Program-made: the position numbers and the translations under genes
DNA from: Sphingomonadales bacterium
GTDB lineage: Bacteria > Pseudomonadota > Alphaproteobacteria > Sphingomonadales > Govanellaceae
Direction: 5' to 3'
Assembly (NCBI GenBank): GCA_019455285.1
Contig: JACFMS010000001.1
Coordinates: 1 to 64,000, forward strand
DNA length: 64,000 nucleotides
Notes under the pieces: generated by a model
What the model was told of the DNA's origin: nothing
Database searches by the model: none
What the model saw: the letters and a program-made list of their open reading frames with translations, nothing else
Shown here: positions 10,652 to 31,116 of the stretch, in pieces
How the letters are laid out: the number at the start of each line of letters is the position of its first letter
Numbering within the stretch: position 1 is the first letter of the stretch

Positions 10652-11332
10652 ATGACTGTAACTGTTCATCGCCTTCCCGTTGACACCCTTTCTTCTGATG
10701 ATATCGAGCGGTGGAGAACCATACCGGCGGCGGTGGCGGTGGACGTCAGCCGCGCCGCCTGTCAGATCGATCCCGCTATCCGCCCGCTATGCCCGCCGGG
10801 TCGCCAGCCGCATCTTTTCGGCCGGGCGGTAACGGCGCGCTGCGAGCCGCCGGATTTCAGCGCCGTGCTTCATGCCTTGGAGCTGATCAAGCCCGGCGAC
10901 GTGCTGATGATCGACGCTGAGGGCCACATTGATACGGCGATGATCGGCGAGATCATCGGCGGACACCTGCGCCGCCTTGGCGCGCACGGTTTTGTCTGCG
11001 ACGGGGCGGTTCGCGACGTGGCCGAACTGGCGAGCTGGCCGGACTTTTCCGTCTTCGCCCGCGCCATCACGCCGCGCGGTCCGATGGTGGGGGAGCGCGG
11101 CGCGGTCAATGGGGAAGTGATGATCGGCGGGCGGCGGGTCAATCCCGGCGACCTTATCATCGGCGATGATGATGGCTTGGCGGCGCTCAATGCGGATGCC
11201 GTTCGCTCGCTCATCGAGGCGGCGGAGGCCAAGCTTGCGCTTGAGGCAGCATGGCAAGCCGATCTCGCCGCTGGGCGTTCCGTCGCCGCGACCTTCGGTC
11301 TTGCGCCTGCCGGCGACGCTATTTCAGCATAA
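10652..11332 (+). CDS. RraA-family protein (HMG/oxaloacetate aldolase-like)
   Basis: A 226-residue member of the RraA / 4-hydroxy-4-methyl-2-oxoglutarate aldolase fold. Characteristic segments are GDVLMIDAEGHIDTAMIGEIIGGHLRRLGAHG, then DGAVRDVAEL and VNPGDLIIGDDDGL. The G-x-x-x-D of the metal site and the R of GAVRD are present. Enzymes of this fold cleave 4-carboxy-4-hydroxy-2-oxo acids to pyruvate or oxaloacetate; others have no known enzyme role. It lies 36 bases after the aminotransferase, probably in the same operon. Its 3' end overlaps the convergent SDR gene by 14 bases. Confidence 0.85.
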   Translation: MTVTVHRLPVDTLSSDDIERWRTIPAAVAVDVSRAACQIDPAIRPLCPPGRQPHLFGRAVTARCEPPDFSAVLHALELIKPGDVLMIDAEGHIDTAMIGEIIGGHLRRLGAHGFVCDGAVRDVAELASWPDFSVFARAITPRGPMVGERGAVNGEVMIGGRRVNPGDLIIGDDDGLAALNADAVRSLIEAAEAKLALEAAWQADLAAGRSVAATFGLAPAGDAISA

Positions 11333-12077
11333 TGCCGCCGTCGATCACCACGCTGGAGCCGACCATATAATCGCTGGCGGACGAGGCGAGGAACACCACC
11401 ACGCCGGCGACTTCCTCGCTACGGCCAATCCGCCCGGCCGGCACCTTGCGCGCCGCCTTTTCCGCCACGCGCTCGATGGTGTCCTGCTTTAATTCTGTGG
11501 TGATATAGCCGGGACAGACGGCGTTGACCTGGATGTTGTGGCGGATCAGTTCCAGCGCCATGGCCCGGGTCAGCATCATCACGCCGCCCTTGCTGGCGCT
11601 GTAATCGGCGCTGCACGGCAAGGGCAGGAACGAGCCCACCGAGGCGACATTGATGATTTTGCCATGGCCCTCGCGCACCATATGCCGGCCGACTGCTTGC
11701 GAGCACAAGAACATGCCGGTGAGGTTAATGTCGATCGTTTGCCGCCATTGCTCCAGCGTGATGTCGAGAAACGGCTGCGCCGCGCCGGCGATGCCGGCGT
11801 TGTTGACGAGAATGTCGATGCGGCCGAAGCGTTCGATAACGGCGGCGACCATCGCCTCGACCTCATTCTGCTGACTGACGTCGCAACGGAAGGCTTCTGC
11901 GGCGACGCCGGTCTGGCGGATTTCAGCGCACGCCGTCTCGCACACCGACAGCCGACGTCCGCAAAGCGCGATATCGGCGCCCGCCTTGGCCAGAGCGCGG
12001 GCGATGCCAAGGCCGATCCCGCTGCCGCCGCCGGTGACGATCGCCAACTTGCCGCTTAGATTAAAGGCGGCGTTCAT
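11319..12077 (-). CDS. Short-chain dehydrogenase/reductase (SDR)
   Basis: A 252-residue classical SDR that oxidises an alcohol or reduces a ketone with NAD(P). The cofactor motif is TGGGSGIGLGIA, then NNAGIA, and the catalytic Ser-Tyr-Lys lies in SVGSF...YSASK. The C-terminal VIDGGIM is standard. Its ATG overlaps the stop of the acyl-CoA dehydrogenase upstream by four bases (ATGA), so it is the last gene of the leftward operon that begins at 17022. A likely role is 3-hydroxyacyl-CoA or side-chain alcohol oxidation, inferred from this context. Confidence 0.92.
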   Translation of the reverse strand: MNAAFNLSGKLAIVTGGGSGIGLGIARALAKAGADIALCGRRLSVCETACAEIRQTGVAAEAFRCDVSQQNEVEAMVAAVIERFGRIDILVNNAGIAGAAQPFLDITLEQWRQTIDINLTGMFLCSQAVGRHMVREGHGKIINVASVGSFLPLPCSADYSASKGGVMMLTRAMALELIRHNIQVNAVCPGYITTELKQDTIERVAEKAARKVPAGRIGRSEEVAGVVVFLASSASDYMVGSSVVIDGGIMLK

Positions 12078-13243
12078 GATGCAGCGCCTTTCATGGCTTG
12101 TTCGGTAACGGCCGGTGATTTGTCACCCAGGAGCTGCGTCGCCAGCACCTCAAGATGATCATCAACATCGCCAAAAGCAGTTTCCGCCATGCGGGCATGA
12201 CGGAAGTAGAGCGGCATTTCATGCTCCTCGCAATATCCGATGCCGCCCATGACCTGATGGCCAAGTCGCACGATTCGACGATAGGCCTCATTGCAGCAGA
12301 TTTTGGCCTTGGCGACAAGGGACGGCTCAAGCGCCCCGCGGTCGATCGCGGCGGCCGCCTTGTAGGTTATCCAGCGCGCGCACTCCAGATCCATCAGCAT
12401 GTTGACGCAGTGATGCTGGATCGCCTGAAAGCTGCCGATCGGGCGGCCAAACTGCTCGCGCTCGCGGGCATAGGCAACAGCGGTGTCGAGCACGCGCTGC
12501 GCGCCGCCGACCATCTCGGCGCATTTGGCGACGGCGGCCTCGCTTAATGCCCGCTGCAGGCCGTCCGCCGTTTCCGTCGATTGGCCGAGCGTATCCGCTG
12601 CCGCCGTCTCGACATTTGTCAGTTCTACGGCATAATGATGCGCGCCGCCGATGGTTGGCATGGCGGAGAGCGACACGCCCGATGCATCCGGCGCGATGCG
12701 ATAGAGGGCCAATGCGCCATCGGCTTCACGAATCGCCGGGCAGAGGAGAATATCCGCCGCCGCGGCGTCGGCCACGAACAGCGCCGCGCCGTAAAGACGC
12801 GGCGCGCCGGCGCTGTTCGTGGCGCGCACGGACACGGTTGATAGATCAAAGCCTGCGCGCTGGGTATCGAGCGCCAACGCCAGCTTCAGTCCGCCGCGCG
12901 CCAGCACCGGCAGCAGCGAGCGACGCTGCGGTTCGTCTGCAGCATAGAGGATGGAGAGCGCGCCGGTCACGGCGGTGGAAAAGAATGGCCCGGTCATAGA
13001 GGCATGGCCGATTTCCTCCAACAGCACGGCAAGATCCAGGAAGCTGGCGCCGGCGCCGCCATAACGCTCCGGCACGACCAGCCCCATCCAGCCAAGATCA
13101 GCCATTTGCCGCCACAAGGCGTCGTCAATGCCGCGCGGATCAAGCCGCGCCGCGCGCGCGCGCTCCGACGGAAAAGCCTGCGCCAGAAATTCACGGGCGC
13201 TCTGGCGGATCAACGTCTGTTCTTCATCGAGTTGCAGGTACAT
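12074..13243 (-). CDS. Acyl-CoA dehydrogenase, subunit retaining the FAD-contact motif
   Basis: A 389-residue acyl-CoA dehydrogenase (alpha,beta-desaturation, FAD). Start at 13243 (MYLQLDEEQTLIRQSAREFL) is the typical N-terminus; an upstream frame reaching 13312 would overlap the previous gene. It keeps REREQFGRPIGSFQAIQH, the FAD-adenine contact at the dimer interface, and GGIGYCEEHEMPLYFRH, where family members place the loop near the catalytic Glu. Its neighbour at 13269-14480 lacks the FGRPIG segment. Tandem unlike acyl-CoA dehydrogenases of this size form alpha2beta2 heterotetramers in steroid side-chain breakdown, so these two are probably subunits of one enzyme. Confidence 0.9.
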   Translation of the reverse strand: MYLQLDEEQTLIRQSAREFLAQAFPSERARAARLDPRGIDDALWRQMADLGWMGLVVPERYGGAGASFLDLAVLLEEIGHASMTGPFFSTAVTGALSILYAADEPQRRSLLPVLARGGLKLALALDTQRAGFDLSTVSVRATNSAGAPRLYGAALFVADAAAADILLCPAIREADGALALYRIAPDASGVSLSAMPTIGGAHHYAVELTNVETAAADTLGQSTETADGLQRALSEAAVAKCAEMVGGAQRVLDTAVAYAREREQFGRPIGSFQAIQHHCVNMLMDLECARWITYKAAAAIDRGALEPSLVAKAKICCNEAYRRIVRLGHQVMGGIGYCEEHEMPLYFRHARMAETAFGDVDDHLEVLATQLLGDKSPAVTEQAMKGAAS

Positions 13244-13268
13244 GACATCCACTCTTTGCGACGATCGA

Positions 13269-14480
13269 TCACGGATCGCGCGGCAGGCGCAGGCCGCGAT
13301 AGGCGACGACATTGCGCAACACCTCGCTGGTGCCGCCGCCGATGGTCTCGATGACTGTCGCCCGGCTCATGCGCGCCGCCTCGCCCATCAGCGGCGCCCA
13401 TTTTGAGCCCTCCTCAAGCCGGCCGAAAGCGCCGAGAATGTCCAGCGCGTCATAAGCAAAGCGCTGCCGCAGCTCGCTGCCCACCAATTTGACGACCGTA
13501 CCCTCCGATTCGATAGTCTTGCCCTCGCGCAACAGGAATAGGGCATGGGCTTCGAAGCACAATGCCGCCTCCAGCTCCGCTTCCATGCGCGCCAGGCGTT
13601 GTCGCGCCGCCGGATGCTTCGCCAAGGGTGCGCCATCGCGCAGGGCGGTGCGCATGTAATTGGTCAAGCGGTCGAGAAAGTTTCGCAGTCGGATGTTTTG
13701 CGATAGCATCAATCGCTCATGCTCGATGGCTTCGATCATGTAATAGAAGCCGCGATTGGGCTCTCCCACCAGACGGCTTTCATGCACCTTCACATCATCA
13801 TAAAAAACGGCATTGGTGCGCTCGCCGCCAAGAGTGTGAATTGGATTGATGGTGATGCCAGGCGCCCGCTGATCGACGACAAACAGGCTGATGGCGCGAT
13901 GGCGCGGCGCATCGACGTCGGTACGCGCCGCCAGCCAGTGATAGTCCGCGAAGTGGCTCTGCGTATTGAAGACCTTCTGCCCATTGATGATGTAGTACTC
14001 GCCATCACGCACGGCGCGCATTTGCATGGCGGCCAAATCGGATCCTGCCGGCGGTTCGGTATAGCCCAAACCAAACTCCACCTCGCCGGCGGCGATGCGA
14101 GGCAGAAACTCGCACTTCATCCGTTCGCTGCCATGGCGCAGGATCACCGGCCCCGCCATCAATCGCGCCACGCTGTTGGGCAGATAGGCCTCCCGTCGCG
14201 CGAATTCCTGCGACAGGATGATTTCCATGGCAATGCTGCCGCCGACGCCGCCATATTGCTCCGGCCAGCCGATGCCAAGGAAGCCGGCGGCGCCAAGCCG
14301 GCGCATGAACTCCCGCCCTTCGGGACCGAGGCCGAGATCAAGCGGGTGCTGGCGACGCACTTCCTCAGTCAATTCGCGGTCCAGAAAATCACTCAACCGG
14401 CGCTGAAAGGCGCGTTCCTCCGGCGTGGAGGCCAGTTCGAAGTCGAGAATCCGTCGCCCTGGCGACATGCTTGCCCTCAT
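13269..14480 (-). CDS. Acyl-CoA dehydrogenase, partner subunit
   Basis: A 403-residue acyl-CoA dehydrogenase with the N-terminal helical domain, the GLGYTEPPAGSDLAAM substrate/flavin segment, NGQKVFNTQ and the C-terminal IGGGTSEVLRNVVAYRGL. The usual R-x-x-FG-x-x-I/L interface motif is replaced by YMRTALRDGAPLAKHPAARQ. This fits a heteromeric enzyme in which FAD is bound mainly through the partner subunit. Its ATG overlaps the stop of the CoA ligase by four bases, and its stop lies 25 bases before the second dehydrogenase. Expected to desaturate a bulky acyl-CoA, by analogy only. Confidence 0.9.
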   Translation of the reverse strand: MRASMSPGRRILDFELASTPEERAFQRRLSDFLDRELTEEVRRQHPLDLGLGPEGREFMRRLGAAGFLGIGWPEQYGGVGGSIAMEIILSQEFARREAYLPNSVARLMAGPVILRHGSERMKCEFLPRIAAGEVEFGLGYTEPPAGSDLAAMQMRAVRDGEYYIINGQKVFNTQSHFADYHWLAARTDVDAPRHRAISLFVVDQRAPGITINPIHTLGGERTNAVFYDDVKVHESRLVGEPNRGFYYMIEAIEHERLMLSQNIRLRNFLDRLTNYMRTALRDGAPLAKHPAARQRLARMEAELEAALCFEAHALFLLREGKTIESEGTVVKLVGSELRQRFAYDALDILGAFGRLEEGSKWAPLMGEAARMSRATVIETIGGGTSEVLRNVVAYRGLRLPRDP

Positions 14481-16018
14481 TTGCGCACCAACTGATCGCC
14501 GCCGAACCGCGCGCGCAATTCACCCTTGACCACTTTGTTCAAAGCGTTGCGCGGCAAACGGTCGAGGAAAACCACGTGACGTGGAATTTTATAGCGCGCC
14601 AGCCGGCCGTTGCAGTGCTGCAGAACCTGTTCAGCGTTCAGATTACTGCCCGCGCGCGCCACAATGGCGGCGCAGCCCACTTCACCCCATCGCTCATCGG
14701 CGACGCCGATTACCGCAACCTCGGCAATCGCCGACATTTCATAGAGCACGTTTTCCACTTCCGCCGGATAGACATTCTCGCCGCCGGAGATGTACATGTC
14801 CTTCCAGCGATCAACGATATAATAATAGCCATCGGCATCGCGCCGCGCCGCATCACCGGTACGAAACCACCCGTCGGTAAAGGCCTGGGCGGTGGCTTCG
14901 GGATTGTTCCAGTATCCCGGCGTCACGGTGACGCCGCGAATCCATACTTCACCCAGTTCGTCGGTGTCGGCATCGCGGCCGTCGCGGGTGACAAGGCGAA
15001 ATTCGCCATGTATCACCGGTTTGCCGCAAGAGCCGACTTTCTCCATCGGTTGGTTCAGGTCGCTGATGAATACGCCGGGTCCGCCTTCGGTCAGGCCGTA
15101 CCCTTCCTGAAATGGAACACCGCGCGCCAACCAACGGCGATGCAGACTGAGCGGCACCGGCGAGCCGCCCACGGCGGCCGCGACAATGCGTGACAGATCG
15201 ACGCTGTTGAACCGCGGATGATCGCTGATCATCTGGTAACTGGTCGGCACGCCCATCAAATGGGTAACGCCAAGCTCGCGGTCGTCAATCAGATCAAGAA
15301 TCCAATTGGGGTCGGATTGACGGGTGACGATTACCGTGCCGCCGGCGTGCAGCGCCGGGTTGGAGCCATTGCTCAAGCCCCCGGTATGAAACAGCGGCAG
15401 CGAACAGAGCTGCACCGATTGCTGACCGACGCGCACGATTGTGCCGTAGTTCATCACATTGAACAGCGCCATGGCATGGGTGATGATGACGCCCTTAGGC
15501 AGTCCCGTCGATCCGGAGGTATAAAGAATTGCACATGGTTCGGCGAGGGCGACCGCAAGGGGAGCAAAATCACGGCGCGCCCGGCTTAGCAAGTAAGCAT
15601 AGTCGCCGCCACAGCCATCGTCCCCCCAATCCAGCAGGCGTATGTCGCTGCCGGCGATGGCTTGCCGCGCCGTCTCAGCATACTGGCTCTGGTAGATCAA
15701 TATCTTCGGCGAAGCATTCACAAGCTGTTGATTCAATTCCCGGGCCGTCAAGCGCCAGTTCAGCGGCACATTGATGGCTCCCACCTTGTGGCAGGCGTTA
15801 TGCACTACCAAGTGTTCAGGCGTATTCTGCGACAGTACCGCCACCCGCGCGCCGCGACTGACGCCGAATTCATCCGCAAGCAATGCCGCCAGAATGCGAG
15901 CGCGATCATTGAACGCCGCATAGCTGATCATCCGCCGGCTATGGGCGTCGATGAGGGCGGGTTTGTCCGGCTGCCGCGCGGCGTGACGCGCGATCCAGTC
16001 GTAGGCCGTCAACTGCAT
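14477..16018 (-). CDS. Acyl-CoA synthetase (AMP-binding, class I)
   Basis: A 513-residue ATP-dependent CoA ligase that activates a carboxylic acid as its CoA thioester. Motifs: LYTSGSTGLPKGV (P-loop), GYGLTEGGPG (A5), TGDAARRDADGYYYIVDRWKDMYISGGENVYPAEVE (A7-A8 hinge) and the catalytic lysine in LPRNALNKVVKGELR. It has the full family length and no signal. It lies 14 bases after the MDR oxidoreductase and overlaps the acyl-CoA dehydrogenase by ATGA. The order ligase - dehydrogenase pair - SDR is a beta-oxidation set lacking only a hydratase, which is supplied by the gene at 17111. Confidence 0.92.
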   Translation of the reverse strand: MQLTAYDWIARHAARQPDKPALIDAHSRRMISYAAFNDRARILAALLADEFGVSRGARVAVLSQNTPEHLVVHNACHKVGAINVPLNWRLTARELNQQLVNASPKILIYQSQYAETARQAIAGSDIRLLDWGDDGCGGDYAYLLSRARRDFAPLAVALAEPCAILYTSGSTGLPKGVIITHAMALFNVMNYGTIVRVGQQSVQLCSLPLFHTGGLSNGSNPALHAGGTVIVTRQSDPNWILDLIDDRELGVTHLMGVPTSYQMISDHPRFNSVDLSRIVAAAVGGSPVPLSLHRRWLARGVPFQEGYGLTEGGPGVFISDLNQPMEKVGSCGKPVIHGEFRLVTRDGRDADTDELGEVWIRGVTVTPGYWNNPEATAQAFTDGWFRTGDAARRDADGYYYIVDRWKDMYISGGENVYPAEVENVLYEMSAIAEVAVIGVADERWGEVGCAAIVARAGSNLNAEQVLQHCNGRLARYKIPRHVVFLDRLPRNALNKVVKGELRARFGGDQLVRK

Positions 16019-16032
16019 GTGCCCATGGCCTC

Positions 16033-17022
16033 CTACTCAACCTTAAGCACGACTTTGCCCATGACTTGCCGGCTCTCCAACAGGCGGTGCGCCTCGGCGG
16101 CTTGCGCCAGCGGCAACACAGTATGGATATGGGGCGCGATGCGGCCCGCGCCGGCAAGGTTCGCCAATTCCTGCAAGGCCAAGCCCATATCCGGCGGATT
16201 GGCCGCGGCCAACGATTCCAGGCTCATCAGCCGCAGCGCCGGGCTAAGGCCGAAAGCGCCCATGAACGCCATCATGAATTCCGCCGTCGGCGGACCTTCG
16301 GCCATGCCGTAAAGCACGATCTGGCCGAATGGCGACAGCATTGCCACATCATCGGCCAGCGTCGAACCGCCGAGCGAATTGAACACCGCCTGCACGCCTT
16401 TTTCCGCCAGCGCCCGCACCTGCGCGGCAAGCGGACCGGCGCCGGATTGCAGGACGCCATCGGCGCCCTGACCGCGCACGAAACGGCATTTCTCCGCCGA
16501 GCCCGCCAAGCCGATCACCCGCAGCCCGTCAAGCCGCGCCAGTTGCACCAGCGCCGAGCCGACGCCGCCGGCGGCGGCATAGATCACCACCGTATCGCCG
16601 GCCGACAAGGCCGTGGCCCGGCGCAGCAGACACCACGCGGTCAGATAATTGGTGCCGATCGCCGCTGCCGTTTCAAAGGATACCGTTTCCGGCAGCCGCG
16701 CGGCGAAGATGGCGGGACAGGCGACATATTCGGCGGCGCAGCCGCCGGGAGTGACGACAAGCACGCGCTTGCCCATCCACTCTTGCGGCACGCCTTGGCC
16801 GACCTCGACCACCACGCCGGCGGCTTCATAGCCGGTGATGAACGGCAACGGCGGCATGTGTGGATATAAGCCGCGGCGCAATTGCACGTCGCCGAAACCG
16901 ACCCCGCTCGCCGCCACCTTGATCAGGATATGGCCGGGGGCCGCCTGCGGCCGCTCCATTTGCGCATAATCAAGCGTCTCAGCGGGACCCGTTTGTCGCA
17001 GTACGATCGCCTTCATCATCAT
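16033..17022 (-). CDS. MDR-family NADPH:quinone-oxidoreductase-like enzyme
   Basis: A 329-residue medium-chain reductase without zinc ligands (quinone reductase/enoyl reductase type). The nucleotide motif is AAAGGVGSALVQLA, preceded by ATALSAGDTVVIY, and the C-terminus LLESRQVMGKVVLKVE is family-typical. Three consecutive ATG codons (17022, 17019, 17016) follow a GGAGGG; the third has the best spacing, so the protein may start two residues later. It is the first gene of the leftward operon to 11319. The only non-coding space before it (17023-17110) carries one of four shared 25-bp boxes. A paralogue lies at 61536-62534. Confidence 0.88.
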   Translation of the reverse strand: MMMKAIVLRQTGPAETLDYAQMERPQAAPGHILIKVAASGVGFGDVQLRRGLYPHMPPLPFITGYEAAGVVVEVGQGVPQEWMGKRVLVVTPGGCAAEYVACPAIFAARLPETVSFETAAAIGTNYLTAWCLLRRATALSAGDTVVIYAAAGGVGSALVQLARLDGLRVIGLAGSAEKCRFVRGQGADGVLQSGAGPLAAQVRALAEKGVQAVFNSLGGSTLADDVAMLSPFGQIVLYGMAEGPPTAEFMMAFMGAFGLSPALRLMSLESLAAANPPDMGLALQELANLAGAGRIAPHIHTVLPLAQAAEAHRLLESRQVMGKVVLKVE

Positions 17023-17061
17023 CCCTCCGTTTTTTATCTCTAGCCTATTTTCATTCCGTAT

Positions 17062-17086
17062 AGTAGAAAATTATTCTATCCGGTAC
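17062..17086. promoter_or_regulatory. Shared 25-bp operator-like box, copy A
   Basis: Begins AGTAGAAAA and ends TTATTCTATCCGGTAC; it contains the short inverted repeat TAGAA-AATTA-TTCTA. The second half matches copy B at 17978-18002 in all but two of 16 bases. It lies 36 bases upstream of the MDR gene, in the right place to control the leftward CoA-ligase/acyl-CoA-dehydrogenase operon. Related boxes are at 29434-29458 and 32565-32586. The regulator is not proven; the TetR gene at 30371 is the nearest candidate. Confidence 0.5.
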
Positions 17087-17110
17087 AAGAAGCTTTCGGC
17101 TAGGCGTCCA

Positions 17111-17896
17111 TCAGCGTCCCTGCCATTGCGGCGGGCGCTTTTCCAGGAAGGCGCTGAAGCCTTCGCGGCAGTCCTGGGTGCCGCCCAGCAGCATGCCGGC
17201 GGCCTGGCAGAAGTCCACCGCCCCCTCAAGCGGCATGTCGGCGGCCAAGGTCACCGCGCGCTTGATCATGGCCACCGCCTCCGGCGCCTGGGCGGCGATT
17301 CGCGCGGCCAATTGGCGGGTCGTCGGCATCACCGACTCAGGGTCCGCCAAGCGCGCTACCAAACCGAGACGCAGCGCTTCATCGGCATCCACCGCCTCGC
17401 CGGTAAGACCCAGGTAGAGCGCCCGTTCGCGGCCGATCAGGTGCGCCAGCCGCGCCGTGCCGCCGGCCGAAGCCATGATGCCGAGCCCGACCTCGGGCAG
17501 GCCGAGGCGCGCCGTGGTCGATAAAATGCGGATATCGCAGGCCAGCGCCAGCTCCAGGCCGCCGCCCAGGGCATGGCCGTTGATCGCGGCGATGACCGGA
17601 ATACGCAGTCTGGTCAAGCGGTTGCCGATGCGGGTGATGCGGTCATGGAGGCGGAAGAAATCATAAGGATGCGCCAGTCCCGTCTTCATCATGCTGATAT
17701 CGCCGCCCGCCATGAAACAGCTGCCGCTGCCGGTGATGATAAGCGTTCGCAAGGCCGGTGTGGCGGCAACGGTGTCCAATGCCTGCTCTAATTCAATAAC
17801 CAATGCTTCGCAGATGGTGTTGCGTTGTTCGGGGCGAGAGAGGATGATGGTTCCTATCGCCCCCTCCATTTCCAGTCTTAGGGTCTGCTGGCTCAT
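17111..17896 (-). CDS. Enoyl-CoA hydratase/isomerase family protein
   Basis: A 261-residue crotonase-fold enzyme that probably adds water to a 2-enoyl-CoA in beta-oxidation. Start chosen at 17896 (MSQQTLRLEMEGAIGTIILSRPE), with AGGAG well placed upstream; an ATG at 17920 would add eight residues. Family marks are the oxyanion-hole segments SGSGSCFMAGGDI and ALGGGLELALACDIRI, and LPEVGLGIMASAGGTARL. The usual second glutamate position reads MASAGG rather than P-G-x-G-G-T, so whether it acts as a hydratase or an isomerase is open. It diverges from the serine hydrolase gene, with box B between them. Confidence 0.87.
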   Translation of the reverse strand: MSQQTLRLEMEGAIGTIILSRPEQRNTICEALVIELEQALDTVAATPALRTLIITGSGSCFMAGGDISMMKTGLAHPYDFFRLHDRITRIGNRLTRLRIPVIAAINGHALGGGLELALACDIRILSTTARLGLPEVGLGIMASAGGTARLAHLIGRERALYLGLTGEAVDADEALRLGLVARLADPESVMPTTRQLAARIAAQAPEAVAMIKRAVTLAADMPLEGAVDFCQAAGMLLGGTQDCREGFSAFLEKRPPQWQGR

Positions 17897-17977
17897 AGCC
17901 TCGGCTCCTGCGGTCGCCATTTTTTCGTCGCGTCACAGTCAGTCTTGCATATCACCGAACACGGTATTATTCTAGAC

Positions 17978-18002
17978 GGTATTATATTATTCTTTCCGGT
18001 AT
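17978..18002. promoter_or_regulatory. Shared 25-bp operator-like box, copy B
   Basis: Begins GGTATTATA and ends TTATTCTTTCCGGTAT, so GGTAT recurs 20 bases apart (two helical turns). A further GGTATTATTCT lies just before it at 17963-17973. It lies between the divergent enoyl-CoA hydratase and serine hydrolase genes, 25 bases before the latter. The serine hydrolase starts the rightward unit that leads into the molybdenum enzyme, so this box may link the molybdenum enzyme to the CoA genes. Confidence 0.5.
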
Positions 18003-18027
18003 CAACACCAGCGCCAGCGGGGGGAGC

Positions 18028-19188
18028 ATGCAGATAAACGATCCACAAACCGTCGGTATGGACGCGAAGCGTCTGCAGCGGCTGCCCAAGGCCATTGCCC
18101 GGGACATCGAGGCCGGACTTTATGACGGCGCCGTCATCGCCATCGGTCGTCATGGCCGGCTAGTGATGCACCAGGCGATCGGCTATGCCGACCGCGCCGC
18201 CGGCCGCAAGACGGCGCTGGATGATGTGTTCGGAGTGCTCTCGCTCTCCAAGACTCTGACCAATGTTCTGGTGCTCAATCGCTGCGAGCAAGGGCTGTTG
18301 CGCCTGACCATGCCGGTGGCGGAACTCATTCCCGAATTCGCCATCCTGGGCAAACAGCATATCACCATTCAACACCTGCTGGCCCATACCGGCGGCTTAG
18401 GCGGCATGCCGCCGATGCCGCTTGATCGCATGCCGCTTGAGGCCGCGATCGCCGCCGTGTGCATGTTGCCGCTGATGTCAAAGCCGGGCGAGGCGGTCAG
18501 CTACAGCGGGCTGACCGCGCATGTGGTGCTGGCCGAACTGTTGCGCCGCGCCGATGGCGGCAAGCGATCGTTCCGACAAATATTGGATGAAGATCTCTTA
18601 AAGCCGCTCGGCATGCGCGATACCGCGCTGGGACTGCGTTCGGACCTCGCCAAGCGACGCGTGCCGTTCGTCGTGCGCGATCAGCAGCCCGGCCTGTTGC
18701 CGCCGCCCATGCTGGAAAGTTACAACGAAGTGCTCAATGAGACGGCGGAGGTGCCGGCCATCGGCGTCTACTCCACCGCCGCCGACTTCTACCGCTTTTG
18801 CGAAATGCTGCGCCGCGGCGGCGAGCTGGACGGCGTGCGCCTATTGTCGCCGCTGACGCTGGACATGGCGACCCGCAACTGCACCGGCAATATGATCAAT
18901 GCGTTGTGGACCTATGCTCGGGAAAGCCGCGGCTGGGAAGATTTTCCCGCCTATCTTGGCCTTGGCTTCTCGCTGCGGGGCGAGGGCATTTTCCCGCACC
19001 ACTTCGGTACGCTGGCCTCGCCGCGCAGCTTCGGCCATGCCGGCGCCGGCGCCACCCTGTTTTGGGTCGATCCGGTTCAGGACATGAGTTTCGTCGCCCT
19101 TACCGCGGGCCTGGTGGAGGAAGCCGCCAGCGTGGAGCGCTTCCAGCGTCTGTCGGACTTGGCTCTATCATCGATCGTCGCGCCGTAG
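18028..19188 (+). CDS. Serine hydrolase of the beta-lactamase / EstB esterase family
   Basis: A 386-residue penicillin-binding-protein-fold hydrolase. The nucleophile motif SxxK is Ser72-Leu-Ser-Lys75 (in GVLSLSKTL), and the second motif is YSG in AVSYSGLTAH. The C-terminal HAGAGA replaces KTG, as is usual in EstB-type esterases. No signal peptide is evident, which points to esterase or lactonase activity in the cytoplasm rather than cell-wall work. The ATG follows GGGGGGAG closely. It lies 71 bases before the molybdenum enzyme gene on the same strand and may release an acid or alcohol substrate from an ester. Substrate unknown. Confidence 0.88.
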   Translation: MQINDPQTVGMDAKRLQRLPKAIARDIEAGLYDGAVIAIGRHGRLVMHQAIGYADRAAGRKTALDDVFGVLSLSKTLTNVLVLNRCEQGLLRLTMPVAELIPEFAILGKQHITIQHLLAHTGGLGGMPPMPLDRMPLEAAIAAVCMLPLMSKPGEAVSYSGLTAHVVLAELLRRADGGKRSFRQILDEDLLKPLGMRDTALGLRSDLAKRRVPFVVRDQQPGLLPPPMLESYNEVLNETAEVPAIGVYSTAADFYRFCEMLRRGGELDGVRLLSPLTLDMATRNCTGNMINALWTYARESRGWEDFPAYLGLGFSLRGEGIFPHHFGTLASPRSFGHAGAGATLFWVDPVQDMSFVALTAGLVEEAASVERFQRLSDLALSSIVAP

Positions 19189-19259
19189 CGGCGTTGCTTT
19201 AAGGGCGGGCTGTCAACGGCGCGCCAAATTGCGTTCTATCATCGTCTTAAGGAAACAGC

Positions 19260-22187
19260 ATGGCCACCAACGAGATTGAGACCTTGCCTAAGGCTGGCAC
19301 CACGCGCCGCGGCTTTCTCGCCCTTGGCGCTAAATCCACCGTGGCGCTGGCGCTGTGCGAGCTGGCGCCCGGCCTCAACGCCGCTTTCGTCGGCGAGGTC
19401 TTGGCGGGCACCCGCGCCATCGCCTATGCCGGCTGGGAGGATATCTACCGCAAGGAGTGGCAGTGGGACAAGGTCACCTGGGGCTCGCACACCAATGCCT
19501 GTTCGCCCGGCACTTGTCTGTTTCATGTCTATACTCGCAATGGCCTGGTCTGGCGCGAGGAGCAGGCGGCGCGCACCAAGGCCAGCAATCCCAAGTACAC
19601 TGATTACAATCCGCTCGGCTGCCAGAAGGGCTGCGCCTTTCATACCAGCTTATACAGCGGCGAACGGGTGAAATATCCCTTAAAGCGCGTTGGCGAACGC
19701 GGTGAAGGCAAATGGCAGCGCATCAGTTGGGATGAAGCGCTAACCGCCGTCGCCGACGCCATTCTCGACGCCCACCAACGGGGCGGCACATCGAGCTTCG
19801 TGCTTGACGGGCCGCACGTCCATGCCGGCAACGTCGCCTCGGCCGCCACCTTCCGCTTCATGGAATCGCTCAATGGCGTGATCACCGACCACAACATGCA
19901 AATCGGCGATACTTTTATCGGCAGCCTGATTACTCTGGGCAAGATGCAGGTCGGCTATACCCCCGACAACTTCTTTGATGCTCAGTTGGTGGTCATGACC
20001 CATGCCAACTGGTCCTATACCGCGCCGGCGTTGTATCACTTTCTCACCGAGGCGCGCTACAACGGCACTGAGATCGCCATTCTGGCGCCGGACGCCAACA
20101 CCACCACCCATGCCGCGGACATCCACATCCCGGTGAAAGTCGGAACTGATGCCGCCTTCTGGCTTGCGGCATGTCAGGTCATGATCGAAACGGGCAGCTT
20201 CAATGCCGGCTTCATCAGCGAGCAGACCGACCTGCCGCTCTTGGTGCATACCAAAACCCGCCGTTTCTTGCGCGCTGCTGAAGTGGATGGCGGGCGCGAG
20301 GACCAGCTTTATTTCTATGATAAAAAATCAGGACGCATTGCGTCGGCGCCGCGCGGCACGCTGCGGCATGACTTTGATCCGGCGCTTGACGGCGAGTATA
20401 CCGTGACTCTGCGCGACGGCGCGAAAGCCACGGTGACGCCGGTATTTGCCTTGCTGCGCCGCCAACTCGATCAGCGCTACCGTCCGGAACAGGCGCAAGA
20501 GCTTAGCGGCGTGCATGCCTCGGTGATCCGGGATATGGCGGCCAAGATCGCCAGTCGGCGCACCTGCGCCTACATCGGCTTTAGCAGCGGCAAGCATTAC
20601 CATGGCGACCTGATGGAGCGCAGCCTGCTGTTGGCCATGGCCTTGAGCGGCAATGTCGGCAAGCCCGGCACTGGCATCGCCATCTGGTCTTTTCCTGCGG
20701 ACGGCATCTCCATGCTGGCCGGGATGGAGCGGCCGATCGCCCAGGGGGGCATGGCCGCCGGCGCCGAATATGTCCAGGCGCTGGCGCGCGAACTTGCCGC
20801 AGAGGACCCCGAAATCACCGAGGAATTGGTACACATCGAAATGATGAAGCGGATGAGCCGCCGTCTTGGCCACTCGCCGTCAGCCTTCTGGTTCTACAAT
20901 CACGTCGGTTACGACAAGTTATGGAATCGCCGTGAGTGGCAGGATCCAGCCATGCCGCGCTCATTTGGCGACTATATGAAGGAGGCGCAGGCAAAAGGCT
21001 GGTGGGATGGCCTGGTGCTGCCGCCGCCGGGCAAGCCGCCGGAAGTGCTGATGTACATCGGCAACAACCCGCTGCGGCGGGTGCGCAGCGGCAATGTCCA
21101 GTATCCGACCGAGCTTTTCCCCAAGGTCAAGACCATCTTCACCGTGGAGACGCGGCTGTCATCCTCGGCCATGTACTGCGACTATGTTTTGCCGGCGGCG
21201 TGGTACTATGAAAAGCAGGATATGACGCTGTCGATGACCGCCAGTCCCTATATCTCGCTCATCGAAAAGGCGACCGAGCCGGTAGGCGAGGCGATGGAGG
21301 AATGGCGCATCTATGGCCGGCTGCTTAAAACCATTGCCGAGCGCGCCGCCGAGCGCGGCGTCGAAAGCTTTGTCGATCGTTTCGGACAATCGCATCGCTA
21401 TGCCGATCTTTATCACCATTACACGCTCGGCGGCGCGATCGAGGATCACGACGCGGCGGTGCGGGAAATGGTGGCGGTGAAAGTCGCCACCGGTATTTTC
21501 CCGCGTGATTACAGCTACGATCAGTTTCGCCGCGATGGTACCGTGACGCTGCACGGCATGGGCGTTACTTTTCAGAAACACGCCGTGGCCAATGAATTCG
21601 ACCCCAAGAAGCCGTTTTATAGCCTGCGCTGGCATACGGAGGAGAAAGTACCCTACCCGACCTACGCCCGGCGCATGCAGTTCTATATCGATCACGAATG
21701 GTTCCTCGAAGTCGGTGAAGAGCTGCCGGTGCACAAGGATATTCCACCGATCGGCGGCAATTATCCTTTCCGCATCACCAGCGGCCATCCGCGAATCAGC
21801 ATCAACTCGGTGCATCTGGCCAACCCGCAGCTCAATCGCTTGCACCGCGGCCAGCCGGTGATGTTCATGAACGATGCGGAAGCGGCGGCGCTCGGCATCG
21901 CCGACAGCGAGATGGTGCGGGTATATAATGATGTCGGCGAATTCGAGATCATGGTCAGCCTGCAGGCCTGCGTCGCGCCCAAGCAGGTCATCGTCTATTA
22001 CTGGGAGCCTTACCAGTTCCGCGGTTGGCAAAATTTCGACGGCGTGCTGGTCGGCATGCCCAAGGCCATTCACTTCGCCGGCGGCTACGAGCAGTTGCGC
22101 TACTTCTACATGCACGGCAGCCCCCATGCCTCGGTAGATCGCGGCGTGCGCGTGGGCGTGGAAAAATTGAGTCGAGGAGTTGCCTGA
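19260..22187 (+). CDS. Tat-exported Mo-bisMGD oxidoreductase, catalytic alpha subunit (ethylbenzene/steroid C25 dehydrogenase type)
   Basis: A 975-residue type II DMSO-reductase-family subunit. The N-terminus has the twin-arginine signal TTRRGFLALGAKS (Arg16-Arg17), so it folds with cofactor and goes to the periplasm. The FS0 cluster ligands are His77, Cys81, Cys86 and Cys121: HX3C is standard, but the second gap is CX4C where NarG has CX3C. Asp217 in MQIGDTFIG aligns by eye with the Asp that ligates molybdenum in NarG/EbdA. GTDAAFW, SSSAMYCDYVLPAAW and the C-terminal cofactor domain (ITSGHPRISINSVH) are all present. Relatives hydroxylate hydrocarbons or steroid side chains with water, or reduce chlorate, selenate or nitrate. 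The catabolic neighbours favour hydroxylation. The beta gene begins within its stop codon. Confidence 0.92.
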   Translation: MATNEIETLPKAGTTRRGFLALGAKSTVALALCELAPGLNAAFVGEVLAGTRAIAYAGWEDIYRKEWQWDKVTWGSHTNACSPGTCLFHVYTRNGLVWREEQAARTKASNPKYTDYNPLGCQKGCAFHTSLYSGERVKYPLKRVGERGEGKWQRISWDEALTAVADAILDAHQRGGTSSFVLDGPHVHAGNVASAATFRFMESLNGVITDHNMQIGDTFIGSLITLGKMQVGYTPDNFFDAQLVVMTHANWSYTAPALYHFLTEARYNGTEIAILAPDANTTTHAADIHIPVKVGTDAAFWLAACQVMIETGSFNAGFISEQTDLPLLVHTKTRRFLRAAEVDGGREDQLYFYDKKSGRIASAPRGTLRHDFDPALDGEYTVTLRDGAKATVTPVFALLRRQLDQRYRPEQAQELSGVHASVIRDMAAKIASRRTCAYIGFSSGKHYHGDLMERSLLLAMALSGNVGKPGTGIAIWSFPADGISMLAGMERPIAQGGMAAGAEYVQALARELAAEDPEITEELVHIEMMKRMSRRLGHSPSAFWFYNHVGYDKLWNRREWQDPAMPRSFGDYMKEAQAKGWWDGLVLPPPGKPPEVLMYIGNNPLRRVRSGNVQYPTELFPKVKTIFTVETRLSSSAMYCDYVLPAAWYYEKQDMTLSMTASPYISLIEKATEPVGEAMEEWRIYGRLLKTIAERAAERGVESFVDRFGQSHRYADLYHHYTLGGAIEDHDAAVREMVAVKVATGIFPRDYSYDQFRRDGTVTLHGMGVTFQKHAVANEFDPKKPFYSLRWHTEEKVPYPTYARRMQFYIDHEWFLEVGEELPVHKDIPPIGGNYPFRITSGHPRISINSVHLANPQLNRLHRGQPVMFMNDAEAAALGIADSEMVRVYNDVGEFEIMVSLQACVAPKQVIVYYWEPYQFRGWQNFDGVLVGMPKAIHFAGGYEQLRYFYMHGSPHASVDRGVRVGVEKLSRGVA

Positions 22188-23266
22188 TGGTTTACGCACC
22201 CCAGGGAAGCAAGCGGGATCTGGTCAAGGCCAAACGGCAACTCGCCACCGTCATCGATTTGAATAAGTGCATGGGCTGCCAGACTTGCGTGGTGGCGTGC
22301 AAAAATTTGTGGACGGTGCGCGACGGCACCGATCATATGCGCTGGATGAATGTCACCACCTATCCTGGCCATGGCTACCCGCGCGATTATGAGCACAAGG
22401 GCGGCGGTTTTCGCGATGGCGAACCGCAGCCGGGCGTGCTCACCACCATGAGCGATTGCGGCGATCATTTCCAGTTCAACCACGATGAAGTGCTCAATCA
22501 GGGCAAAGGCAACGCCGCGCGCTTTGAACCGAAAACGGCGAGCGGCGAGACGCCGTCATGGGGCTATAACTGGGACGAGGACAGAGGCGGCGGCGAATGG
22601 CCGAATGGCTATCGCTTCTATTTGCCGCGCATGTGCTATCATTGCAGCAATCCGCCTTGTCTGCAGGCTTGTCCCACCAATGCCATCTACAAGCGCGAAG
22701 AGGACGGCATCGTGCTCATCGATCAGGAGCGCTGCCGCGGCCATCGCCACTGTGTCGAGGCCTGCCCCTATAAGGCCATCTACTTCAATCCCGTCCATGA
22801 GACGAGCGAGAAGTGCATCCTGTGCTTTCCCCGGGTGGAGAAAAAAATCGCGCCCGCTTGCAATCGTCAATGTCCCGGCCGCACCCGCGCCTTCGGCTAT
22901 CTCGACGATGTGGAGTCGCAGGTTCACAAACTGGTGCGGGTGTGGCGCGTGGCGTTGCCGCTGCATCCGGAATACGGCACCGAGCCCAATGTCTATTATA
23001 TTCCGCCATGGTCGCCGCTTGCCTATGACGATGAGGGCAAACTCACCGATCAGATGCGCATTCCCGTCTCGCAACTGGAAGAATTGTTCGGCCCGGCGGT
23101 GCGTCAGTCGCTTGAGCTCCTCGGCCGCGAGCGGGCGAAGAAAAGAAAGGGCGAGCCCTCGGAGCTGATGGATATTCTCATCAGTCGGGTCTGGGAGGAT
23201 CGTTTCGGCGGCTTTACCGAGGCCCCGCTTGAACCGCATGCCGCGAAGGGAGGGCACAAGTCGTGA
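22187..23266 (+). CDS. Four-cluster Fe-S beta subunit of the molybdenum enzyme
   Basis: A 359-residue electron-transfer subunit. Its ATG shares a base with the alpha stop (TGATG) and has GAGGAG upstream; an in-frame ATG at 22025 lies inside alpha and is rejected. Ferredoxin-like motifs, in order: CMGCQTCVVACKN (Cys28, 31, 34, 38), CYHCSNPPCLQACP, CRGHRHCVEACP and CILCFPRVEKKIAPACNRQCPGR. In the third, a His stands where a fourth cluster cysteine would be, as expected for the [3Fe-4S] cluster of this family (other members have an aromatic residue or similar there). It passes electrons from alpha to the haem subunit. No signal of its own, so it probably travels with alpha. Confidence 0.94.
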   Translation: MVYAPQGSKRDLVKAKRQLATVIDLNKCMGCQTCVVACKNLWTVRDGTDHMRWMNVTTYPGHGYPRDYEHKGGGFRDGEPQPGVLTTMSDCGDHFQFNHDEVLNQGKGNAARFEPKTASGETPSWGYNWDEDRGGGEWPNGYRFYLPRMCYHCSNPPCLQACPTNAIYKREEDGIVLIDQERCRGHRHCVEACPYKAIYFNPVHETSEKCILCFPRVEKKIAPACNRQCPGRTRAFGYLDDVESQVHKLVRVWRVALPLHPEYGTEPNVYYIPPWSPLAYDDEGKLTDQMRIPVSQLEELFGPAVRQSLELLGRERAKKRKGEPSELMDILISRVWEDRFGGFTEAPLEPHAAKGGHKS

Positions 23267-23907
23267 AGGTCGTCAAGGTTTCCACCGCCGCCGCCGCGCT
23301 TTCTGATCCGCTCTCGCCTTATTGGTCGAGCGCCGCCAAGGAACGGCTGTCGATGATGCCAACGCCGCTGGCCATGGTCGATGAAGTGTCACCGTTTCTC
23401 GCCATCAGCAACGATCATGGCAGCGTCGAGGAGGCGGAAGTGGCGGCGCTGCATGATGGGCGGACGTTGACGCTGCGCTTGTCCTGGGCAATGCCGAAGG
23501 CGGCCGATAAAATCGATGACTTGGACCGCTTCGTCGATGCCGCAGCAGTCATTTTCCCGCTCGCTCGGAATGCCAGCGCCATGACCATGGGCGCAAAGGG
23601 TCAACCCACCAACGCCTGGTACTGGAAAGCGGGCAAGCCGCATCCTTATGACGTCATTGCCGAAGGCTTCGGCTCCAGCCAACGTCACGACGGCGCGACG
23701 AGCAGCTTAAGCGCGCGAGCCATTCACGCCGATGGACGTTGGCATGTGGTCTTTCAGCGGCCGCTGGAGACCAGCCGGGACAGGGTGCGATTCGTGCCCG
23801 GCAAAAAAACCGGCATTGCGTTTGCGATCTGGGATGGCCGCAATCGCGAACGTTCCGGCCGCAAGTCCTTCTCCGGCGAATTCATCCCGCTGGAAATCGC
23901 CGGCTAG
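23263..23907 (+). CDS. Haem-b gamma subunit of the molybdenum enzyme (EbdC/DdhC/ClrC-like)
   Basis: A 214-residue subunit starting with GTG at 23263, overlapping the beta stop (GTGA). The segment ARNASAMTMGAKGQPTNAWYWKAGKPHP is typical of EbdC-type subunits; one of Met107/Met109 is the likely axial ligand of haem b, the other being a lysine in this family. The C-terminal GKKTGIAFAIWDG and ERSGRKSFSGEFIPLEI match the family end. It takes electrons from the last Fe-S cluster and gives them to a periplasmic acceptor. No signal peptide is seen at the N-terminus, so export with alpha is inferred. A soluble haem subunit argues against a membrane nitrate reductase (NarI type). Confidence 0.88.
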   Translation: MKVVKVSTAAAALSDPLSPYWSSAAKERLSMMPTPLAMVDEVSPFLAISNDHGSVEEAEVAALHDGRTLTLRLSWAMPKAADKIDDLDRFVDAAAVIFPLARNASAMTMGAKGQPTNAWYWKAGKPHPYDVIAEGFGSSQRHDGATSSLSARAIHADGRWHVVFQRPLETSRDRVRFVPGKKTGIAFAIWDGRNRERSGRKSFSGEFIPLEIAG

Positions 23908-23922
23908 AGCAGGATCACAAGC

Positions 23923-24594
23923 ATGGAAAACGGCATGATGGGTGAACGCGGACTATGTGCTGAAGATCGCTCCTCGGCGCCGCCCAGCCTTGCCGGCGTT
24001 AGTGCCGGTCACGCGGCGCGCTGCGATCTTTACCGTCTGTTCGCTCAGGCCTTTCGTCATCCAAGCGATGAGATGGCGGAGCTTGTTGCCGAATTGCAGC
24101 AAGCCGTCGCTGGCCATCCCAACCCCGTAGCGTCGCCAATCATCGCGATGCCGCCGCTGGCCGAGCTCAGTCAGCGCTATACGCAATTATTCGAGGCAAG
24201 CAACGGACGCAGCGCCATTTCCCTGCACGAGTCGGACTTCGTGTCGAAAACGCGGGCGACGGTGTGGGAGGATATCGTACGCTTCTATGAGCATTTCGGG
24301 CTGAACTACAATGGCCAGAGCATCCGGCTGTGGCCCGATCATTTGGCCCTGGAGTTGGAATGCCTGCACTACCTGGTATTTCTGGAATCCGGCATGCGCA
24401 CCGATGCGGAACCGCTGCTGCGGGCAGAGCGGGATTTTATCGATCGCCATCTGCTGACGTGGCTGCCGGAACTCTTGCGGCGGCTGAAGGATGCGCCGCA
24501 GGCGGAGCCTTACGCAGCGCTTGTCGCATGGCTTTATGACTGCCTGCGCGCTGATCGGGCGTGGCTGGAGCAGGCCATTGCAGATATGAATTAG
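23923..24594 (+). CDS. TorD/NarJ-family cofactor-insertion chaperone
   Basis: A 223-residue all-helical protein of the TorD/DmsD group, which binds the alpha subunit and its Tat signal until molybdenum cofactor is inserted. Family marks are CDLYRLFAQAFRHPSDEM, LSQRYTQLFE and WEDIVRFYEHFGL followed by PDHLALELECLHYLVFLE. It lies 15 bases after the gamma gene, last in the operon, the same order as ebdABCD, ddhABDC-like and clrABDC-like sets (though position varies). Its stop overlaps the convergent DUF35 gene by four bases. Confidence 0.88.
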   Translation: MENGMMGERGLCAEDRSSAPPSLAGVSAGHAARCDLYRLFAQAFRHPSDEMAELVAELQQAVAGHPNPVASPIIAMPPLAELSQRYTQLFEASNGRSAISLHESDFVSKTRATVWEDIVRFYEHFGLNYNGQSIRLWPDHLALELECLHYLVFLESGMRTDAEPLLRAERDFIDRHLLTWLPELLRRLKDAPQAEPYAALVAWLYDCLRADRAWLEQAIADMN

Positions 24595-24995: not shown

Positions 24996-24999
24996 GGCG

Positions 25000-26696: not shown

Positions 26697-26721
26697 TTCT
26701 TCCGGTCTCCTTAAATCCAGG

Positions 26722-29393: not shown

Positions 29394-29433
29394 GAGAGGC
29401 TCCCTAAAGCTGCAATAAAGTCTAATACCTACT

Positions 29434-30370: not shown

Positions 30371-31099
30371 ATGACGTCCGAGAACCGGAAAATGCAGAAG
30401 TCGAAATCACGCCGCCGCCCCACCAAGCGACGTGCAAATGACGACAAGAACAGCATCCGTGACCGGCTGTTCGATTTCAAGCGCGAGCAAATTCTGGAAG
30501 TCGCCGAGCGGTTGTTCTACGAGCGGGGCTTCAAATCCACCACGCTGGACGCCATCGCCGCCGAGCTGTCGGTGACCAAGCCCTTCATTTATTACCATTT
30601 TCATAACAAACATGACATTCTCCATGTCCTCGTCGAACGCACCATGCAGGGTAATGCGGAGGTGTTTGACAGCATCGATATCGAGAAGGGCAACCCTACT
30701 GATCTGTTGCGCGAACTATGCCGGCGGGTGGTGCTGCTGGTCATCAACAGCCGCACCAGCATCGCCATGTTCTGGCGCGAGCAGAAAGAAGTTCCCGATC
30801 AAGAAAAGCAGGTCATGCACGCCAGAAAGCAGCGCCATGACGCTCAGTTCGAGCGGATCATCGCGCGCGGCGTGCAGATGGGCGAGTTTGCGGTGGACGA
30901 TCCCAAGCTGGCGGTGCTCGCCCTACAGGGCATGCTCAACTGGGTCTACACTTGGTATCGTCCGAACGGCCGCCTGGATGCTGAAACCATCGCCGATCGC
31001 ATCGCCGACCTGGCGGTTCGTTCGGTATGCATCGCCTCTGCGCCGGCGGCGCTGGGCGTCAAAACGCGGACCCGCAAACCAGTTCGCGCTTCGAGCTGA
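30371..31099 (+). CDS. TetR-family regulator, candidate controller of the core cluster
   Basis: A 242-residue repressor-type protein. A basic N-terminal tail of about 35 residues (KSKSRRRPTKRRAND) precedes the HTH domain FKREQILEVAERLFYERGFKSTTLDAIAAELSVTKPFIYYHFHNKHDIL. The ligand domain ends in GMLNWVYTWYRPNGRLDAETIADRIADLAVR, a pattern common in regulators that sense acyl-CoA or lipid-like ligands. It lies among the CoA genes and near two of the four shared 25-bp boxes, so it is the first candidate for binding them. No box lies directly before its own gene. Confidence 0.9.
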   Translation: MTSENRKMQKSKSRRRPTKRRANDDKNSIRDRLFDFKREQILEVAERLFYERGFKSTTLDAIAAELSVTKPFIYYHFHNKHDILHVLVERTMQGNAEVFDSIDIEKGNPTDLLRELCRRVVLLVINSRTSIAMFWREQKEVPDQEKQVMHARKQRHDAQFERIIARGVQMGEFAVDDPKLAVLALQGMLNWVYTWYRPNGRLDAETIADRIADLAVRSVCIASAPAALGVKTRTRKPVRASS

Positions 31100-31116
31100 T
31101 TCTGATCACGGCAGTC

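Follow-up and report, generated by a model that had tools for sequence, protein, structure and literature searches.

The window, a 64,000-nucleotide stretch from a Sphingomonadales bacterium represented so far by metagenomes only (GenBank assembly GCA_019455285.1, contig JACFMS010000001.1), carries the alpha, beta, gamma, and delta genes of a molybdenum enzyme. Its assignment to the ethylbenzene dehydrogenase (EBDH) type is well supported. EBDH oxidises alkylbenzenes with oxygen from water instead of O2. Anaerobic ethylbenzene hydroxylation is best known from denitrifying Betaproteobacteria of the Rhodocyclaceae type. The explanation that we propose, with a probability of about 0.7, is that the window encodes a periplasmic EBDH-type alkylbenzene hydroxylase. 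The same genome contains bcr, oah, apc-like, and NarG-like genes, and this gene content makes an alkylaromatic substrate and an anaerobic route to benzoyl-CoA likely. Ethylbenzene itself is a plausible substrate.

Phylogeny, subunits, and active site of the enzyme

Comparison of alpha with solved structures gave EbdA (2ivf) as the best match, with 1188 bits over residues 14–969; PcrA was next with 372 bits. A maximum-likelihood tree was built from 24 alpha rows, several of which are the matched stretch and not the whole open reading frame. SerA and DdhA are absent from the tree, which also omits an incomplete alpha at one end of the G441:C114 stretch and the alphas from a later alphaproteobacterial survey. 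Six rows form a single clade (100/100) that consists of the window alpha, the alpha of its congener (locus L006), EbdA, and one alpha each from loci L007, L008, and L009. Nine paralogues from genomes G441, G442, and G443 are the sister set of this clade (94/94, under the starred threshold). Outside it lie further paralogues, ClrA on a long branch, and a far group of PcrA, a haloarchaeal enzyme, and NarG (100/99). Alpha identities are 50–55% within the clade (51.8% to EbdA), 99.6% to the congener, and 25–42% outside the clade, with PcrA, NarG, and ClrA at 25–31%. A preliminary description of this DNA had stated that firm grouping of alpha with nitrate, chlorate, or selenate reductases would refute its proposal; in the tree, alpha is separate from NarG, ClrA, and PcrA. 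The enzyme is predicted most likely to work like EBDH.

The cofactor sites of the complex were located by motif and alignment (Table 1). Alpha contains the twin-arginine motif RRGFL, its FS0 ligands read by motif are one His and three Cys, and its Asp217 is the alignment partner of the molybdenum ligand Asp223 in EbdA. Fifteen Cys are common to all seven aligned beta subunits, which is the number required for three [4Fe-4S] clusters and one [3Fe-4S] cluster. In gamma, Met109 is kept in 7/7 aligned sequences and Lys201 in six, the seventh sequence ending before the position. According to a passage in PMC8840923, haem b of EBDH is coordinated by Met and Lys. We infer that Met109 and Lys201 correspond to these positions, EbdC itself being outside the alignment. 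On the curated type II subfamily profiles, beta and gamma score above their cut-offs; alpha (951.2 against 984.75) and the chaperone are both slightly below, and the type II chaperone family is the nearest to the latter. Alpha and beta overlap by 1 base, beta and gamma overlap by 4, and gamma and delta are separated by 15 bases. Comparison of the window with its congener gives dN/dS values of 0.05 (alpha), 0 (beta), 0.13 (gamma), and 0.14 (delta), so the complex appears to be under purifying selection. The parts listed in the preliminary description (Tat motif, FS0 ligands, Asp217, four-cluster beta, haem-binding gamma, and TorD-type delta) are all recovered, delta as nearest to its family. 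Its gene order also holds, but the overlaps that it described extend only to the first two junctions. The extent that it gave, 18,028–24,594, is correct at its right end, where the enzyme genes stop; its first 1.2 kb is a serine hydrolase gene that contributes no subunit.

The equivalents of the EbdA triad His192/Asp223/Lys450 in the window alpha are His186/Asp217/Lys445. Asp223 is kept in all 24 alpha rows. Lys450 is kept in 20, ClrA included, and is replaced by Arg in G443_a4, by His in NarG and PcrA, and by Asp in the haloarchaeal row. Position 192 is His in all six rows of the EBDH clade, always within the motif PHxHAG, and in none of the 18 others (11 gaps, 7 other residues); three of these 18 have some His within four columns, none at the position. 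Pairwise alignments of five further alphaproteobacterial paralogues place Thr or Gln there. Published statements supply the other side of the comparison, since labelled sequences of steroid C25 dehydrogenase (S25DH), p-cymene dehydrogenase (CmdA), and alkane C2-methylene hydroxylase (AhyA) are not among the rows: His192 is described as replaced in ahy, cmd, and S25d sequences in one passage (PMC7803848), and an excerpt from another paper describes no such His in S25DH (PMC6153880). A scan of genome contigs for labelled references of these three kinds returned four loci, none from known degraders, and a plasmid scan returned seven records with more than 80% coverage at 26–31% identity. Retention of a residue that is reported to be replaced or absent in the steroid-C25, p-cymene, and alkane enzymes places the window enzyme on the EBDH side, and it is probably of the EBDH rather than the S25DH type. 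The earlier proposal of an EBDH/S25DH-type enzyme in an alphaproteobacterium is supported, with genes for aromatic catabolism in the genome, and is refined in that the EBDH side is favoured over the S25DH side.

A proposed route to benzoyl-CoA and ring opening

In the proposed mechanism, the delta chaperone would help to load the complex with molybdenum–bis-molybdopterin guanine dinucleotide (Mo-bisMGD), and the twin-arginine translocation (Tat) system would export it. A Mo(VI)=O centre, with Asp217 as ligand, Lys445 hydrogen-bonded to that ligand, and His186 as the base, would take a hydride from the benzylic carbon, and an OH from water would be returned to the substrate carbon. Electrons would pass along FS0–FS4 to haem b in gamma, then to cytochrome c, and finally to nitrate. 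An acetophenone-carboxylase-like complex, whose genes are on another contig, would carboxylate the resulting ketone; the CoA ligase of the apc-like cluster would activate the carboxylated product, and the DUF35–thiolase would cleave it to benzoyl-CoA, which BcrCBAD and Oah would dearomatise. We infer the reaction, the substrate (ethylbenzene or a near analogue), the electron acceptor, and the linking of the separate loci into one pathway.

The stronger evidence for the pathway lies outside the window, in the bcr/oah region and the apc-like operon. The window genome (G000) encodes BcrC, BcrB, BcrA, and BcrD with 711, 792, 758, and 494 bits against equivalog cut-offs of 421, 487, 578, and 313. 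The ring hydrolase Oah scores 655.6 bits in the congener (cut-off 464.45). In G000 its gene is split, with the halves at the ends of contigs C20 and C57 (347.8 and 329.3 bits, each below the cut-off). The bcr stretch of G000 adjoins oah and is 94% identical to that of the congener, and a pair of 2-oxoacid:ferredoxin-oxidoreductase-like genes (POR_N, POR, and TPP domains) sits between them in this region. In the contig order of the congener, C20 and C57 come after C42, and bcr/oah lie about 40 kb from the window. Oah above the cut-off was found neither in G441–G443 nor in 14 control genomes. Between the window and bcr/oah, a stretch of C20 (L082:1929-13289) encodes hydrogenase-4-like membrane subunits B and F, both above cut-offs, a NuoD-like protein, and a 914-residue protein that matches thiosulfate reductase PhsA weakly.

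The candidate carboxylase genes are on contig C33. The best structural match of their HyuB is the delta subunit of acetophenone carboxylase (5l9w), with 298 bits against 125 for acetone carboxylase. The cluster reads along one strand as a TetR-like regulator, HyuA (685 residues), products of 109 and 307 residues, a second HyuA (727 residues), HyuB, a CoA ligase, DUF35, a thiolase that keeps its nucleophilic Cys, and a TonB receptor; members other than HyuB were named by similarity to proteins of the window contig. The two HyuA proteins are 35% identical to each other. The stretch is kept in the congener at 91–92% nucleotide identity, and L096 has no match to the apc-like cluster. Its predicted products fit an apc-type complex together with a ligase and a thiolase, and its 307-residue member agrees with the 34-kDa epsilon subunit named in the abstract of PMC5214803. 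The genome therefore holds two DUF35/thiolase-fold pairs, one in the window (24,591–26,187) that has lost the nucleophilic Cys and one in the apc-like operon (L091:2855-4500) that keeps it. A putative NarG-like frame of 1259 residues is on contig C14. Inside the window, a benzoate-CoA ligase family protein scores above its curated cut-off (Table 1). Taken together, the gene content fits the anaerobic route from ethylbenzene to benzoyl-CoA.

The second EB_dh gene of the genome is on contig C43 and encodes a stand-alone EB_dh-domain protein. No subunits of a molybdenum enzyme lie beside it, and a second enzyme of this kind was rejected; its cluster (L003:7429-12323) also encodes multihaem cytochromes, an MtrB/PioB porin, and a NapC/NirT protein and is a candidate for extracellular electron transfer.

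Several observations weigh against this explanation. Within the clade, support for a pair of EbdA and the window alpha is weak (82/65). The NCBIfam equivalog cut-offs for EbdA–D (NF042978–NF042981) are not reached (1279.4/2000, 592.6/740, 259.2/400, and 137.6/360), and because all four subunits score below them the enzyme is not filed as an EbdABCD equivalog. EbdA Trp87 is Ser82 in the window alpha and Trp481 is kept; we take both to be residues of the EbdA pocket, which may differ here, so that the substrate may resemble that of EbdA without being the same. Of the 12 Hydantoinase_B matches in G000, the C33 HyuB is the sole one compared with solved structures; the remaining Apc subunits, like the ligase and the thiolase of the cluster, were assigned by gene order and homology. 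In both genomes the apc-like genes are on a separate contig from the enzyme. No gene is shown to be a 1-phenylethanol dehydrogenase: the short-chain dehydrogenase/reductase (SDR) at 29,501 is closest to 3-hydroxyacyl-CoA dehydrogenases, and the candidates in the window would be the SDR at 11,319 and the alcohol dehydrogenases (ADH) at 28,332 and 16,033. The known ethylbenzene route needs neither the two acyl-CoA dehydrogenases (ACADs), the hydratase, nor the Cys-less thiolase-fold protein that flank the enzyme, and these may consequently act on a longer side chain or have an unrelated function. The more extensive model, in which a genus of uncultured Alphaproteobacteria has every step of an O2-independent alkylbenzene pathway up to the opening of the ring, assembled from EBDH, apc–ligase–thiolase–TonB, and bcr–oah modules with TonB receptors that import the hydrocarbon or the ketone, is put forward tentatively and with well under even odds.

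Flanking genes and alternative substrates

The CoA ligase, ACADs, hydratase, ADH, FAD protein, and TonB receptor that the preliminary description placed on both sides of the enzyme were found by domain matches (Table 1). TonB receptors are at 2,893 and 32,557 of the window, with more farther out. The open reading frame 28,308–29,504 (+) has no Pfam match. A DDE transposase gene (PF13701; 45,690–47,045) lies between TonB/amine-oxidase genes, with an amine-oxidase-type protein at 42,680, and the benzoate-CoA ligase gene.

Table 1. Genes of the enzyme locus and its surroundings, in window coordinates
Feature	Position	Strand	Basis or remark
Alpha, Mo-bisMGD catalytic subunit, EBDH-type hydroxylase	19260..22187	+	975 aa; Tat RR motif; His77/Cys81/Cys86/Cys121; His186, Asp217, Lys445
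Beta, four Fe-S clusters	22187..23266	+	15 conserved Cys; TIGR03478 528.6 bits (cut-off 480.7)
Gamma, haem b	23263..23907	+	PF09459; TIGR03477 188.5 (cut-off 169.85); candidate ligands Met109, Lys201
Delta, TorD-type assembly chaperone	23923..24594	+	TIGR03482 143.4 (cut-off 152.3)
Beta-lactamase-fold serine hydrolase/esterase, no enzyme subunit	18028..19188	+	PF00144; beside alpha in congener too
CoA cassette left of enzyme	11319..17920	-	Domain and profile matches
SDR	11319-12077	-	Part of left CoA cassette
Acyl-CoA dehydrogenases	12074-13312, 13269-14480	-	Left cassette
CoA ligase	14477-16018	-	Left cassette
Zinc ADH/quinone reductase	16033-17022	-	Left cassette
Enoyl-CoA hydratase	17111-17920	-	Left cassette
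DUF35/ChsH2-type protein	24591-25052	-	Right flank
Thiolase-fold partner, nucleophilic Cys replaced by Gly	25000-26187	-	Right flank
SnoaL-like protein	26184-26729	-	Right flank
FAD_binding_4 flavoprotein	26722-28356	-	Right flank
Zinc ADH	28332-29393	-	Right flank
HSD10-like SDR	29501-30283	+	Right flank
TetR-family regulator	30371..31099	+	Right flank
Benzoate-CoA ligase family protein	47369..48925	+	TIGR02262 686.2 (cut-off 375.25)

It had also been proposed that the flanking catabolic genes act with the enzyme, and that their absence beside it in relatives would count against this. In the congener, the genes on both sides are colinear with the enzyme at 88–100% amino acid identity. Around the distant homologues L007, L008, and L009 the cassette has only weak paralogous matches (L007 ends at a contig end), which in part fulfils that expectation. 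Conservation of the cassette thus holds for one congener and not for the three distant homologues, and that the adjacent acyl-CoA genes act with the enzyme is weakly supported. These homologues have their own genes of similar kinds: an ACAD, a thiolase, and an AMP ligase at L007, an ACAD and a TonB receptor at L008, and a thiolase and hydratases at L009.

A possible but doubtful alternative is that an EBDH-type enzyme acts on a longer or branched side chain, such as that of propylbenzene, a terpenoid, or another isoprenoid-substituted ring, and that the cassette trims this chain through beta-oxidation and retro-aldol cleavage. Colinearity of the cassette with the enzyme in two congeneric genomes and the pocket change W87S are in its favour, but the weak matches around the distant homologues are not. 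The ACADs point in both directions. The one at 13,269 is closest to Tcur3483 and 4x28 (238 and 221 bits; next 159), which are presumably steroid side-chain ACADs, but the second is nearest to a glutaryl-CoA dehydrogenase (121 bits, against 116 for Tcur3481), and NCBIfam ranks the pair closest to pimeloyl-CoA dehydrogenases, far below the cut-off. The thiolase-fold protein, with Gly for the nucleophilic Cys, probably does not thiolyse. It keeps the Tyr of the YD-F motif, as in steroid aldolases, but its motif is YDAF and it has His where Ltp2 has the acid Tyr, so neither aldolase type described in the relevant part of PMC12329534 fits fully. A retro-aldol role for it is a guess.

A steroid C25/C26 dehydrogenase that initiates sterol side-chain degradation was the explanation first favoured, on the ChsH2-type DUF35 protein, the steroid-like ACAD, and the VAO-like flavoprotein; it was dropped on the His192 test and the bcr and apc finds, and we now consider it improbable. 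Such an enzyme would share the subunit plan, the steroid-like ACAD and the DUF35 protein are neighbours, and the hydratase resembles EchA19, although far below the model cut-off (216 against 400). However, the His reported absent or replaced in S25DH is present, and alpha is with EbdA in the tree, the multicopy paralogues of G441–G443 falling elsewhere (S25DH sequences are not in the tree). The genome also has a single full-length alpha, compared with the eight given for Sterolibacterium in a passage of PMC6016249. The solved relatives of the FAD protein at 26,722 are of the lactate/glycolate dehydrogenase and VAO types, and the protein is accordingly not equated with the CtmAB-related delta-24 desaturase described in part of PMC11061730.

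Less credible still is a type II respiratory oxyanion reductase (nitrate, chlorate, perchlorate, or selenate), which would have the same cofactor set and family, but the tree separates NarG, PcrA, and ClrA at low identity (SerA is not in it), NarG and PcrA have His in place of the Lys450 that the window alpha shares with ClrA, and the NarG-like gene of the genome is a separate one.

Host, distribution, and comparison with known systems

The alkylbenzene hydroxylase that we favour is shared with the congener, the metagenome-assembled genome (MAG) PRO5 J3 (G001). Its enzyme locus, L006, is on a 1.03-Mb contig, which argues against misbinning. Neither G000 nor G001 yielded a 16S gene. The PRO5 label is common to this MAG and to bins in two anammox-reactor papers; no accession ties them. 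The identity between the window and L006 is a mosaic. It is 95.8–100% per 500-base bin at the nucleotide level in 14,500–22,500 and 30,500–32,181, and mostly 87–97% elsewhere between 9,259 and 32,181, with one bin (11,500–12,000) at 99.2%. The corresponding dS is 0.006–0.033 for the CoA ligase, hydratase, hydrolase, alpha, and TetR genes and 0.17–0.43 for nine others. This pattern indicates either recent homologous exchange or an assembly chimera.

The distribution of the enzyme was surveyed in several genome sets. Among 60 genomes that included G000, a full-length match was found in G000 and G001 only, and the other 44 of the 46 with any match had at most 68 bits. Five genomes in an even sample of 385 Alphaproteobacteria (G000 included) have a type II alpha at E ≤ 1e-60, and only G000 and G1006 have one of the EBDH clade. 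G1006 is apparently G442 and falls in one class with G000 by the kinship table. L008 belongs to G442 and bears the title Alphaproteobacteria; among the full-length matches listed for its partial 16S, plasmid copies from Alphaproteobacteria come first, with 82–88% identity. Among 96 relatives of G442 the only match was G442 itself. None of 399 genomes from the order of G159 (taken as Burkholderiales from an 88% 16S match) had a match at E ≤ 1e-80, in a search without a known positive as control. The 385-genome and G159-order surveys scored at most two candidates per genome in even samples, and the rarity is only indicative. A phylum sample searched with gamma gave 11/398 at E ≤ 1e-10, G000 among them; the other ten scored 43–62 bits.

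Two of the genomes carry paralogue arrays. A 62.8-kb contig of the alphaproteobacterial MAG CSMAG_2577 (G442:C63, L062–L064) encodes three betas and five alphas of the EBDH/S25DH-like kind; genes for a TonB receptor and a PepSY-TM reductase are close by. In G441 (L065–L068), a MAG titled Deltaproteobacteria and labelled Myxococcota in the tree, the type II alphas number at least eight and the betas at least five. With alphas outnumbering betas, these arrays resemble the Sterolibacterium S25DH sets as portrayed in an extract of PMC6016249.

No earlier report of an EBDH-type enzyme in Alphaproteobacteria was found in literature listings, which do not show that none exists. A passage of PMC5400083 names Rhodocyclaceae for denitrifying degradation of toluene, ethylbenzene, and xylene, and the alphaproteobacterial Magnetospirillum for toluene only. 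An excerpt of PMC12529799 lists ebdA among the abundant benthic hydrocarbon genes and ranks Pseudomonadota first among phyla for genes of this kind, so survey data may already contain similar genes. The window thus presents a known kind of enzyme in a host class that may be new. An alphaproteobacterium with a His192-type enzyme and candidate genes for the later steps would extend the pathway to a wider range of hosts, would suggest that the pathway can be stored as separate modules, and would give anoxic nitrogen-rich systems a candidate degrader. If the complete pathway and TonB import are real, the Alphaproteobacteria would include an ethylbenzene degrader equipped for active uptake. The PHxHAG motif is suggested to separate the EBDH clade from commoner metagenome paralogues and could be used in marker-gene surveys.

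The EBDH-clade homologues in L007 and L009 (MAGs titled Deltaproteobacteria) and L008 (Alphaproteobacteria CSMAG_2577) keep His192 at 50–55% alpha identity. They differ from the window in having three to seven more distant full alpha paralogues alongside, other neighbours, and no Oah above the cut-off. The steroid C25/C26 dehydrogenases of Sterolibacterium denitrificans share the family, the architecture, and, according to the literature, water-derived hydroxylation; they are reported to be many paralogues without a His192 equivalent, whereas the window genome has a single copy with the His. p-Cymene dehydrogenase and AhyABC belong to the same subfamily, and His192 is replaced in cmd and ahy in the account excerpted from PMC7803848. 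EbdABCD of Aromatoleum aromaticum EbN1 (2ivf) has in common with the window enzyme the subunit set and order, the FS0 His and three Cys, Asp223, Lys450, His192, and Trp481, as well as apc-like and bcr genes within one genome. The window differs from it in its alphaproteobacterial host, the change of Trp87 to Ser, the non-adjacent apc-like genes, and a different flanking cassette.

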